40,067 nt of DNA from a virus. Below, in pieces: positions 33,387-40,067 of this stretch. The stretch is from positions 1 to 40,067 of the IMG/VR virus record IMGVR_UViG_3300023184_000263. One strand, written 5' to 3'. Every line of letters starts with the position of its first letter. Position 1 is the stretch's first letter. The translations under genes and the position numbers were made by a program. The notes under the pieces were generated by a model that was not told the origin of the DNA, ran no database searches, and saw only the letters and a program-made list of their open reading frames with translations.

Positions 33387-33418
33387 CAAATATACAACAA
33401 TTTATTGTATCTACCAAA
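33387..33418 (-). promoter_or_regulatory. Perfect Bacteroidetes-type promoter
   Basis: Minus strand TTTG (33418-33415), 20-nt spacer starting GTAG, TATATTTG (33394-33387). An 83-nt leader follows, the longest in the window, with an imperfect hairpin (GTTTAC...GTAAAC, about 33334-33370). Confidence 0.9.
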
Positions 33419-33445
33419 AAAAGGGGAACTTTTTTAGTTCCCCTT
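33416..33445 (-). terminator. Rho-independent terminator
   Basis: Minus strand AAGGGGAACT (33445-33436), loop AAAAA, AGTTCCCCTT (33430-33421), then TTTTTGG. A 10-bp stem with strong T tract. It ends the 36240-33452 transcript. Confidence 0.93.
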
Positions 33446-33451
33446 AATATT

Positions 33452-34306
33452 TTATTGTTTCAATGATAAAATTGTACCAGCTCCACTACCTACGATTGTA
33501 GTAGGCTGAACTCCGTTCCAACGTGTTGCTTTAATATACTCTACATAAGTAGGCGTTAATACTTGTTGTATTTTCTTAACTGCCTCAGCTTCACCCATTG
33601 CGTTAATTACTTTTGTTGCACTATCACCTCTTGCTTTAGCTATTTGTTTGTTAGCTTCAGCGATTGAACTTTGTAACTGCATTTTAGATGTCTCAGCATC
33701 TTGTTTTGCTTTAATCTTTGCGTTAATAGATTGTGCTAAATTTGCATCGGTTGGTGTTGGTTGCTTTAAAATACTAAAGTTATCTACAATGAAACCATCT
33801 TTCTCAAATCTTTCAGTTACATTCTTACGAACCGCTGCCTCAAATCCTGGCATATTGTTTAAGATACTATCCACCGTAATATAACCACTCACATCCTGCA
33901 TACTACCTCTAACTACATTTCGTAAGTAAGTTTGTGAAATACTCTCTAAATCATCTGTCTTATACTTTAAGTAAATCTTAGATGCTTTAACTGGATTAAC
34001 ACGGTAGTTTAAACCTACATCAATTTTAAATCCTGCTCCACCTAAACATGCGACTGTGATATGTTCGTTTGGTTTACTACCTTCGTTTTCATCCTCACTC
34101 CAAATCACGTGTTGCTGTGTTGTTGGAATTGTCACTACATAGGTAAATCCTGGTGTATAGAACTGAAATCCAGTCAATAAAGGTAAACTATCAATACCTC
34201 TATAATCCCCACTATTATCAATCTTAAAACCTACTTCGGTTGGATTGATACGGGTACAACTACCTAATGTCACTACTAATGCGATTAACGCTAATACTTT
34301 TTTCAT
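33452..34306 (-). CDS. SPFH/prohibitin-like lipoprotein
   Basis: A 284-residue protein. Signal MKKVLALIALVVTLGSC has a lipobox with Cys17. The SPFH domain follows: INPTEVGFKIDNSGDYRG, FQFYTPGFTYVVTIPTTQQHVIW, VACLGGAGFKIDVGLNYRVNPVKASKIYLKY, then the long coiled region (FSILKQPTPTDANLAQSINAKIKAKQDAETSKMQLQSSIAEANKQIAKARGDSATK). The EADK-type coils resemble prohibitin and HflC. It would form a lipid-anchored ring outside the inner membrane. The second SPFH gene in this window. Confidence 0.88.
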   Translation of the reverse strand: MKKVLALIALVVTLGSCTRINPTEVGFKIDNSGDYRGIDSLPLLTGFQFYTPGFTYVVTIPTTQQHVIWSEDENEGSKPNEHITVACLGGAGFKIDVGLNYRVNPVKASKIYLKYKTDDLESISQTYLRNVVRGSMQDVSGYITVDSILNNMPGFEAAVRKNVTERFEKDGFIVDNFSILKQPTPTDANLAQSINAKIKAKQDAETSKMQLQSSIAEANKQIAKARGDSATKVINAMGEAEAVKKIQQVLTPTYVEYIKATRWNGVQPTTIVGSGAGTILSLKQ

Positions 34307-37764: not shown

Positions 37765-39909
37765 TTATGCTTTTTTCATAAAAAGCTCATTCATTGTTTT
37801 AATGATTGGAACGATTTGTTTAACATCAATAAAACGGCTGTCACTTCCGTACATTGTTCTAAAGTTATCGGACGAACTACTATATGAACTACCACCAACA
37901 AAGTAACTCATAACTTGTATACCCATATCTTTAATTTGTCCTACCATTTTCTTAGTGTGTAACAATGCGTTTCTACCACTATAAGAACATTGTTGATTTG
38001 AGAATGTTGGCTCACCATCACATATGTTTAATAAATATGAATCCATATCTTTATTACTTTCTACGAAATGTTTAAGTATCGCTTGATAACATAATCCTTC
38101 AGGTGTTGTACCATTAGCATGCAATGCAGGAAACAATCGTTTAACTTTCTCAAACTTATCGAACCTACTATCATACGCAATACATATGTAAGGTTTATCA
38201 CCCCACGTACCTCTGATAGAAACTTGCACATTTAAGTTACTTACCATTGATGCTGCTTTACAAATAGCAATTGTTACGGCTAATGTATCATCCCAACAAC
38301 TACCACTCATACTACCACTACCATCAATTGTAACGTGCAACATTACTTTCTTAAAACGGTCTACTTCTTTTGTACTGAATACATTTACATAATCATATCC
38401 TAATGCAGCTACCATTCTCTTATCAATTCTACCATTCTTTTGGCGTGGATTGATTGTTTCTCTTTCCTCACTACGAACTGCAATACGTTTACCTAAGATA
38501 GTACCCATTACGATACCTCTTTGTAAAGTATCAGCATTCCAATTGTTCCATTTATCATTGTAATAATGCGCAAAAGGAAACGAACTATCTCGCATCAATC
38601 CTTCGGTCATTTTCTTAGAAACAATACATTGAACAGGTTGAATATATCCACCATTCTCTAACTTAGTATCACCTACCGATTGCATTTCAGTTCCACTCTC
38701 AGCCATTTGGTCTAACGTATCATCCTCTTTCTTAGTTAAACCTTTCTTTTTGATATTGTTATTAACGAAGTCTTTCTGCTTTTTGATTTGTTTATCTAAT
38801 TGATTTTTAGCAGAAGCACTCATTAAATCTTTACCATTACCAGTTTGTGAATTACCACTCGCAGAGTCACCTTTCTCACCCAATACAGGCGCGTTACCAC
38901 CACTACCACCCATTTCATCATTTTGTTTATCACCTGCTTCTGCTCCAGTTTCATCACCTGCTTCGTTTACATCTGCAGGGTCACCATTACCTTTACCTTT
39001 ACCATCTTTACTTAAATCAACTAAGATATGTTTTAAGATAGTATTAGTAATACTTTCTGCTACTTTTAATGAATCGGTTGTGTTTTTCAATCTACTAATA
39101 TTCTTAAGGTCTAAGGTTTCATAGATTTCTTTTAAACCTTTCAATTTGTTAAGGTCAGTATTTTGATTTGTGATATTGATAATACGGAACATATACGATT
39201 GTAATGTTTCATCCGTATATTCATCACTTATCAATCCCTTATCAATTGTTTTATCATAGAAATACTCATCATACAATGCTCTATAATAATCTCTATAACC
39301 TGGACAAGTATTGTAGATATATTGGTCAATCCTTCTATCCTCTACAAAGTTTACCAATGATTTAACTACATCAAATAATTGTTCTTTGTTTCGATAATGG
39401 TCAACACCACTAAACGAAGGGTCATTTACATCCAAACCTGCTGCTTTTGCAAAAGAATTAAACATATCGGTTGGTGCAGAATAAGCCGGCATCAATTCAA
39501 AGTCTGTAAGAACAATGTGTGATGCTTCGTGCAATGCCAAACCTACTGCGATATCAAACTTTTCAGGTTTAACCTCAGCCGATAATACTACCGATTTACC
39601 ATCTGTATAAGAATCACCTTTACGTGAAAACCTAACAGGAATGTTTTTGTTTGTAAGAATGTTCACAAAGTTAGCAATCGCTCTCCTATGTGCATTCAAC
39701 TTAATAAGGTCAGCCGTACTGCTTTCTACCTTATTGAACTCTTTTGGTTTCCACGTATCACCACTCCAATATGTAGTAGGTGTGTCATAGGAACTCCATT
39801 CATCAGCCCAAAAGGAACTAGCTGATTTTTTCTCTTTCTTTTTACTTGAATACGAACCCTTTGTTAAATAATCTAAAGTGCCCGTTTTAAAACTGTCATA
39901 CCAACTCAT
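37765..39909 (-). CDS. VWA protein with HExxH motif (CobT/DUF2201-like)
   Basis: Start at ATG 39909 (MSWYDSFKTGTLDYL, 714 residues). An upstream GTG at 39975 would begin inside the tRNA-like stem. Residues 120-140 contain GLALHEASHIVLTDFELMP, an HExxH motif, like the metallopeptidase-like domain N-terminal to some VWA proteins. A disordered Gly/Asp/Asn-rich linker spans about 320-390. The VWA domain has MIDAS motif DGSGSMSGS (529-537), TTPEG and CDGEP. It is probably the partner of the AAA+ ATPase at 36357, as in CbbQ/CbbO or RavA/ViaA pairs. Confidence 0.88.
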   Translation of the reverse strand: MSWYDSFKTGTLDYLTKGSYSSKKKEKKSASSFWADEWSSYDTPTTYWSGDTWKPKEFNKVESSTADLIKLNAHRRAIANFVNILTNKNIPVRFSRKGDSYTDGKSVVLSAEVKPEKFDIAVGLALHEASHIVLTDFELMPAYSAPTDMFNSFAKAAGLDVNDPSFSGVDHYRNKEQLFDVVKSLVNFVEDRRIDQYIYNTCPGYRDYYRALYDEYFYDKTIDKGLISDEYTDETLQSYMFRIINITNQNTDLNKLKGLKEIYETLDLKNISRLKNTTDSLKVAESITNTILKHILVDLSKDGKGKGNGDPADVNEAGDETGAEAGDKQNDEMGGSGGNAPVLGEKGDSASGNSQTGNGKDLMSASAKNQLDKQIKKQKDFVNNNIKKKGLTKKEDDTLDQMAESGTEMQSVGDTKLENGGYIQPVQCIVSKKMTEGLMRDSSFPFAHYYNDKWNNWNADTLQRGIVMGTILGKRIAVRSEERETINPRQKNGRIDKRMVAALGYDYVNVFSTKEVDRFKKVMLHVTIDGSGSMSGSCWDDTLAVTIAICKAASMVSNLNVQVSIRGTWGDKPYICIAYDSRFDKFEKVKRLFPALHANGTTPEGLCYQAILKHFVESNKDMDSYLLNICDGEPTFSNQQCSYSGRNALLHTKKMVGQIKDMGIQVMSYFVGGSSYSSSSDNFRTMYGSDSRFIDVKQIVPIIKTMNELFMKKA

Positions 39910-39946
39910 ACTCTTTAAGTTTATATGTGAATAAATATTGTGTAGA

Positions 39947-39991
39947 AGATAGTAGGGGAATCGAACCCCTACCACGTTTCCAAAACTATCT
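39947..39991 (-). ncRNA. tRNA-like minihelix (acceptor stem plus T arm)
   Basis: Minus strand: AGATAGT (39991-39985), 14 nt, then a canonical T arm AGGGG-TTCGATT-CCCCT (39970-39954), then ACTATCT (39953-39947), fully complementary to the first 7 nt. The T loop follows the TTCRANY rule. There is no D arm, anticodon arm or CCA. It lies in the leader of the VWA gene. Such a 12-bp stack is the shape recognised by RNase P and RNase Z. Alternatives: the 3' half of a tRNA or tmRNA whose 5' half lies past the window edge. Confidence 0.5.
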
Positions 39992-40005
39992 TAGTTTATC
40001 TGCAA

Positions 40006-40067
40006 TTAAGCAGAAATCTTAGCTCTACTAGCTAATTGGCTCAATCTTTGTGAATAATACAAAGCTC
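40006..40067 (-). CDS. C-terminal end of an upstream gene (partial)
   Basis: A reading frame enters from the right edge and ends with TAA at 40006-40008. It encodes ALYYSQRLSQLASRAKISA as its last 19 residues. The loop of a small hairpin (TCTGC/GCAGA) includes the stop codon. It is too short to identify. It could instead be part of an RNA gene (for example a tmRNA-like tag), since it ends in Ala before a stop. Confidence 0.4.
   Translation of the reverse strand, partial: ALYYSQRLSQLASRAKISA

Follow-up and report, generated by a model that had tools for sequence, protein, structure and literature searches.

The window, that is, the whole stretch of DNA analysed here, was a virus record of 40,067 bases classed as linear by IMG/VR, and the features under study were located near its end, all of them on the minus strand. 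The downstream gene (37765..39909) encoded 714 amino acids and was regarded as VWA-like because of its DGSGSMS motif and the neighbouring MoxR-type AAA ATPase, with no VWA match in Pfam at E<=0.01. Its start codon was preceded by an A+U-rich leader (39910..39945), in which no second hairpin was evident from direct reading and the MFE structure. Upstream of this leader, an armless tRNA-like minihelix of 47 bases (39946..39992) was found, and further upstream the 3′ end of a short ORF (40006..40067), cut by the window edge and with its first stop at 40006-40008. This ORF, recognized by comparison with the relatives L002 and L004-L008, where it has about 56 amino acids and ends in ...ALYYSQRL..LASRAKISA, belonged to no Pfam or PHROG family. 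The same kind of comparison revealed a TAA in frame with the small ORF (39991..39993) that overlapped the 5′ strand of the element and was the actual stop codon of the ORF in L004, L005 and L008. Moreover, 12 nt upstream the window lineage had one more TAA in frame, absent from the other carriers of the overlapping TAA.

Read along the minus strand from 39992 to 39946, the element had the order AAGATAGT-TTTGGAAACGTGGT-AGGGG-TTCGATT-CCCCT-ACTATCTT. The 5′ acceptor-like strand AAGATAGT (39985..39992) paired by direct reading with the 3′ acceptor-like strand ACTATCTT (39946..39953) in a stem of 8 bp, followed on one side only by a bulge of 14 nt, TTTGGAAACGTGGT (39971..39984), holding a conserved GG at 39980-39981. 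The T arm (39954..39970), to which both the Rfam tRNA model and the covariance model R1 introduced below aligned, consisted of a 5-bp stem AGGGG/CCCCT (39970-39966 / 39958-39954) and the loop TTCGATT (39965-39959), of the canonical UUCRANN form. The whole stack amounted to 13 pairs, an alternative register giving 7 bp plus a T stem of 6 bp. The original prediction, which had described a 7-bp stem and a T arm joined with only 14 nt where D and anticodon arms belong, was right when the sequence was read directly, the element reaching 39992 and 39946. The base after the 3′ strand (39945) was a C, which takes position 74 in the 12-bp register and was common to all eight distinct elements of the window family. 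The U tract of an intrinsic terminator was absent directly after the hairpin, the window element being followed by CUACAC and those of phage Send513 by ACAAAG, ACUAGG and others. Furthermore, a predicted start codon of the window (39975) fell inside the element, the true start being probably downstream.

No tRNA was called in the window by ARAGORN, and the Rfam tRNA model (RF00005) scored 22.9 bits against a cut-off of 29 bits, the full model being aligned with the D and anticodon arms deleted. A tRNA was therefore rejected, there being no D or anticodon arm and only 14 nt between the acceptor and T stems, likewise in the relatives. The element was retained at the same place in seven IMG/VR relatives, whose downstream protein showed 73-96% identity, and in six of them (L002 and L004-L008) a complete short ORF occupied the place expected for the D and anticodon arms; the end of this ORF, ...SRAKISA, was also present at the window edge. 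These six sequences also ruled out the 3′ part of a tmRNA gene extending beyond 40067, a reading suggested by tmRNA-like sequence before the T arm, as past the edge they held the short ORF and no tRNA arms. The D and anticodon arms that the original prediction had named as the sign of an ordinary tRNA or tmRNA were looked for in the relatives and were not present, and no tRNA or tmRNA was called by ARAGORN or Rfam in those extending past the edge. Rfam gave no family at gathering for the relatives of the window or for ten representative loci of the class described below, and BLAST of the end of the window against phage records found no match. One relative phage carried 19 ordinary tRNA matches elsewhere, so that ordinary tRNAs and the element coexist. 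A small conserved hairpin with compensatory changes (GTGG AGYCA CCAC, TTGG AGTCA CCAA) was also observed upstream of the small ORF in L002, L004 and L005, about 20 nt before its start.

Pattern scans located the same element directly at the stop codon of an SPFH/Band-7-like gene in L010, L016, L038, L039, L040 and L048, where the stop TAA overlapped the 5′ strand, and the window-family element was thereby found after two unrelated gene families. Within this family the bulge varied in sequence and length (11-14 nt) and the stems were invariant, so covariation was not judgeable inside it. The SPFH gene of the window itself (Pfam Band_7) ended with an ordinary intrinsic terminator (33409-33456, GGGGAACT...AGTTCCCCTTTTTTT), whereas the related gene in L016 ended with a minihelix. 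A scan of genome contigs with the window-family pattern returned six matches, none with the minihelix stem in the sequence listed and some being ordinary tRNAs.

The single oddity of the original prediction belongs to a larger class. A descriptor comprising a 7-bp acceptor, a short spacer and a canonical T arm picked out further perfect minihelices with other sequences at unrelated loci of phages. In particular, 21 minihelices outside ARAGORN tRNAs, 18 of them all Watson-Crick, were found in 16 phage records and a few loci, compared with 1.6 expected when the 3′ strand was permuted. BLAST with one class minihelix matched unannotated gaps of cultured Mycobacterium phages, and Send513 and Indlulamithi had 13 and 11 elements (0.9 and 1.5 expected, respectively), on the coding strand only and with many different sequences. 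A pattern for the motif only (bulge and loop) retrieved 94 IMG/VR stretches. Among 118 distinct sites chosen by motif, regardless of stem pairing except for the two loop-closing pairs, 78% formed at least 11 pairs, compared with none of 1775 combinations with dissimilar swapped 3′ halves. The stack lengths of the motif-selected set were 12 (60 sites), 11 (28), 13 (9) and 14 (2), with a mode of 12. Over most of the loci fetched, the distinct phage elements whose bulge contains GG numbered at least 187, compared with 5 after shuffling.

The anatomy of the class consisted of a stack of 11-14 bp, a GG bulge and a UUCRANN loop, the acceptor and T stems of a tRNA adding up to 12; the stack of about 12 bp closed by a T loop, as in the AT-type substrate of RNase P, was thus present. 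The GG was found in the bulge of 12/12 elements of Send513, 11/11 of Indlulamithi, 23/23 others and 8/8 of the window family, groups not chosen by ACGGTTTT although some members were reached via queries containing GG, and in 124 of 127 elements in the group that was chosen by the ACGGTTTT pattern. The commonest bulge was 11 nt long, with the GG at positions 4-5. C74 was present in all the elements of Send513 (12/12), Indlulamithi (11/11) and the window family (8/8), and the full ACCA only at two sites of L128 (2735 and 4520, minus strand). These last were two minihelices of different sequence with the ACCA encoded at the 3′ end; an ATG in the context ACACTATATCATGAA followed each of them at a distance of about 20 nt.

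An alignment of 48 diverse elements showed covariation at 10 of 11 base pairs, with changes on both sides, while the remaining pair, the loop-closing G-C (G53-C61-like), was invariant as in tRNA and partly fixed by the search pattern. The 100% pairing in this alignment arose by selection, and the motif-only test described above therefore matters. The covariance model R1, built from the same alignment without any window-family sequence, found six window-family cousins at full length (L137, L150, L207, L171, L159 and L208, with E from 3e-6 to 1e-3). On the window copy it matched the T arm only (E 0.012), probably because the bulge is 14 nt long. R1 also found 16 elements in 14 kb of the Streptomyces phages Joe and Endor2, outside its training set, with a best E of about 5e-12. 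The minihelix was the MFE structure for 28 of 50 class members.

As weak controls, one exact pattern had no match in 395 bacterial genomes, all from the class to which a Flavobacterium genome belongs, and none of 60 bacterial genomes was matched by R1, which matched in five of six phage records searched with the same tool. No class members were found in phage Rey, and MementoMori (EI) had no R1 or descriptor match in the 29.6 kb scanned. None were found in phiC31 either; the terminators of its early region reportedly lack U tails. What this phage did have (L327, 31409-31551), in a gap separating small genes, was a sequence resembling a tRNA but unusual in its middle part. A BLAST search with the short element at E<=10 gave matches that, among those listed, covered the query in part only, several being annotated tRNAs. 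Matches in RCIP0075, BS-TP2 and Totoro were left uncounted, with no descriptor match in any of them.

The elements were associated with gene ends. Of 186 elements, 128 (69%) began no more than 20 nt from the stop of an ORF on the same strand, compared with 63 of 930 random positions (7%), and only 14% of the elements lay inside ORFs, compared with 71.5% of random positions. The cultured phages Send513, Indlulamithi, Joe and Endor2 carried many elements in gaps between small genes. In Send513, 11 of 14 elements were wholly within intergenic DNA, which makes up 8% of the genome, and those at 42151, 42611 and 61294 overlapped annotated genes. The usual gap in this phage contained a stop codon, 8-15 nt, the element and about 39-47 nt before the next start, with longer gaps as exceptions at 41826, 44598 and 45901. 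Send513 has 25 gaps of more than 60 nt, of which 14 lacked an element and 11, clustered at 38.5-46 kb, held one. Moreover, a hairpin started within a few nt of the element end in all ten folded Send513 gaps, and in nine of them this second hairpin equalled or exceeded 95% of mononucleotide shuffles in stability; the corresponding Indlulamithi segments folded less consistently. In Joe, a phage outside the model training, seven gaps presented a stop, the element, in most cases a second inverted repeat, a ribosome-binding site and a start.

Some annotations were found to coincide with elements. Annotated starts fell inside them for Indlulamithi gp53 and for Send513 gp56 and gp79, the true starts being probably downstream. 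Likewise, the tRNA-Arg of Endor2 (L325:1379-1461; MT711979 44378-44460), in a gap between two small genes, overlapped an armless minihelix scoring 50.5 bits with R1 and is probably a miscalled tRNA.

For the window, the original prediction had offered three options, namely a processing site freeing the downstream mRNA, a decoy for tRNA enzymes or part of a tmRNA. The putative processing site is the best supported among them, on the basis of the stop-codon placement and the conserved anatomy of an RNase P substrate. More generally, the elements are probably minimal substrates of host RNase P, and perhaps RNase Z, serving to cut polycistronic mRNA. Each would be a natural minimal pre-tRNA, with the acceptor-plus-T stack and the UUCRANN loop, and with a GG bulge replacing the D and anticodon arms, and phages put such elements shortly after the stop codons of polycistronic mRNAs. 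Cutting by the RNase P of the host would then occur on the 5′ side of the stack, near the upstream stop codon, while the other side might undergo 3′ processing by RNase Z or exonucleases. Such cutting would separate an upstream mRNA ending near its stop codon from a downstream mRNA with a new 5′ end and could in this way affect expression; in actinophages, the latter would begin with a protective hairpin followed by the ribosome-binding site. The GG of the bulge may supply the contact of D-loop G18-G19, which the GG of the window bulge is proposed to mimic.

This mechanism is consistent with known activities of the enzyme. Synthetic hairpins made of an acceptor stem and a T stem-loop are cut by the RNase P RNA of E. 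coli at the right position, and what bacterial RNase P reads in minimal substrates is an acceptor-T stack that carries a T loop and has its 5′ leader free (PMC11143913, PMC10465520). RNase P also cleaves some phage RNAs and mRNAs, including antisense C4 RNA, M3 RNA and T4 gene 32 mRNA (PMC11143913). However, several findings argue against it. The cut predicted for the window in the 12-bp tRNA-like register, between 39992 and 39991, would in the window family fall inside the upstream stop codon (UA|A) and leave a non-stop message. RCCA is rarely encoded, C74 being frequent, and the 11 bp found in many members fall one pair below the tRNA stack. In the nearest-neighbour model, the window minihelix reached -12.9 kcal/mol versus -15.7 for a slipped hairpin with a longer T stem, and alternative hairpins were 1-3 kcal/mol more stable than the minihelix across the window family; the window also lacks the second hairpin.

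A different role for the fold would be that of a 3′-UTR stabiliser or translation insulator, which would protect the upstream 3′ end or block read-through or coupling without cleavage by a tRNA enzyme. It would fit the stable stem and its position right after stop codons, and it would work without processing and leave the stop codon uncut. We consider it unlikely, as it leaves unexplained both the hairpin just after the element and the retention of the UUCRANN loop, the GG bulge and the stack of about 12 bp amid freely changing stem sequences. Acceptor-T minihelices bind several tRNA enzymes, and the numerous copies in some phages (13 in Send513) would suit a decoy or sink for tRNA-binding enzymes, such as TruB, TrmA, the CCA-adding enzyme, EF-Tu or tRNA-targeting defence nucleases. 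This second option of the original prediction was not favoured and appears quite improbable, since a decoy has no need for the tightly kept place a few nt after stop codons, with one copy per gap, the lack of an anticodon offers no target for anticodon nucleases, and CCA is mostly absent.

Two further explanations were weighed. That they mark a DNA-level cassette boundary, a recombination or mobility site comparable to integron attC that spreads with small genes, would agree with a layout like that of integron cassettes, in which every small ORF is followed by a bulged hairpin, and with the occurrence of the same element behind unrelated genes, including an identical element of about 55 nt between different genes in two different phages (L114:5592 and L120:1667). 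Nevertheless, it is very unlikely, because the attC core sites RYYYAAC ... GTTRRRY are absent (the outer ends in the window read directly as AAGATAG / CTATCTT), the tRNA loop and the GG are conserved, and the stem sequences differ from one copy to its neighbour, a point against copy-and-paste inside one genome. The other explanation, that the elements are degenerate tRNAs or debris derived from tRNAs after deletions in the tRNA arrays of phages, would explain the tRNA-like T arm and accord with the roughly 19-28 ordinary tRNA matches elsewhere in several host phages. This origin deserves hardly any credence, as debris would neither keep perfect compensatory pairing across many sequences nor adjoin the stop codons of unrelated genes, and there was no annotated tRNA in Send513 or in the part of Joe examined.

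Returning to processing by RNase P, its broadest form is slightly more probable than not. In this form, diverse phages would systematically punctuate polycistronic mRNA with armless pseudo-tRNAs of about 45 nt; these would attract the RNase P of the host, and perhaps RNase Z, to release single-gene mRNAs, protected in actinophages by a 5′ hairpin, as a phage counterpart of mitochondrial tRNA punctuation. The class would have gone unnoticed so far because programs for finding tRNAs depend on the D and anticodon arms. If this is true, a further mechanism of gene expression, and a widespread one, would be known from phages, the hairpins that have long served for testing RNase P would have natural counterparts, and how broadly RNase P shapes mRNA would become directly testable. 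Other features that it would explain are the regular spacing of small genes, with gaps of about 90 nt, in several actinophages, at least one tRNA annotated in a phage (tRNA-Arg of Endor2) and a few annotated starts inside elements.

No published description of the class was found in the full-text literature covered, which consisted of open-licence papers. The class is apparently undescribed and large, and akin to tRNA-type processing signals while not being a tRNA itself. In actinophages of the Microbacterium clusters EC, EF, EG and EI, intergenic motifs are likewise repeated in short gaps near small genes but, unlike the class, they are conserved sequence motifs of 13-30 bp (PMC7302621). C4 RNA, M3 RNA and T4 gene 32 mRNA are single cases of phage RNAs cut by host RNase P, whereas the class comprises recurrent intergenic elements (PMC11143913). 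The synthetic RNase P substrates AT1 and pATSer resemble the class in their stacked acceptor and T stem on a T loop, the lack of D and anticodon arms and the free 5′ leader (PMC11143913, PMC10465520), while the class differs in being natural, genomic, multi-copy, located between protein genes, provided with a GG bulge and usually without RCCA. With tRNA (RF00005), the elements share the T arm, an acceptor-like stem and a similar stack length, but not the D, anticodon and variable arms. In mitochondrial tRNA punctuation, tRNAs or tRNA-like elements between the genes of a polycistronic transcript are proposed to set the mRNA ends. The t-elements are mitochondrial tRNA-like structures at mRNA ends (PMC4368725, PMC8003010). 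The class resembles mitochondrial punctuation and t-elements in presenting a tRNA-like fold at same-strand gene junctions, and differs from them in belonging to bacterial viruses, in its length of about 45 nt without D and anticodon arms, in its many unlike copies per genome and in its regular gap layout.
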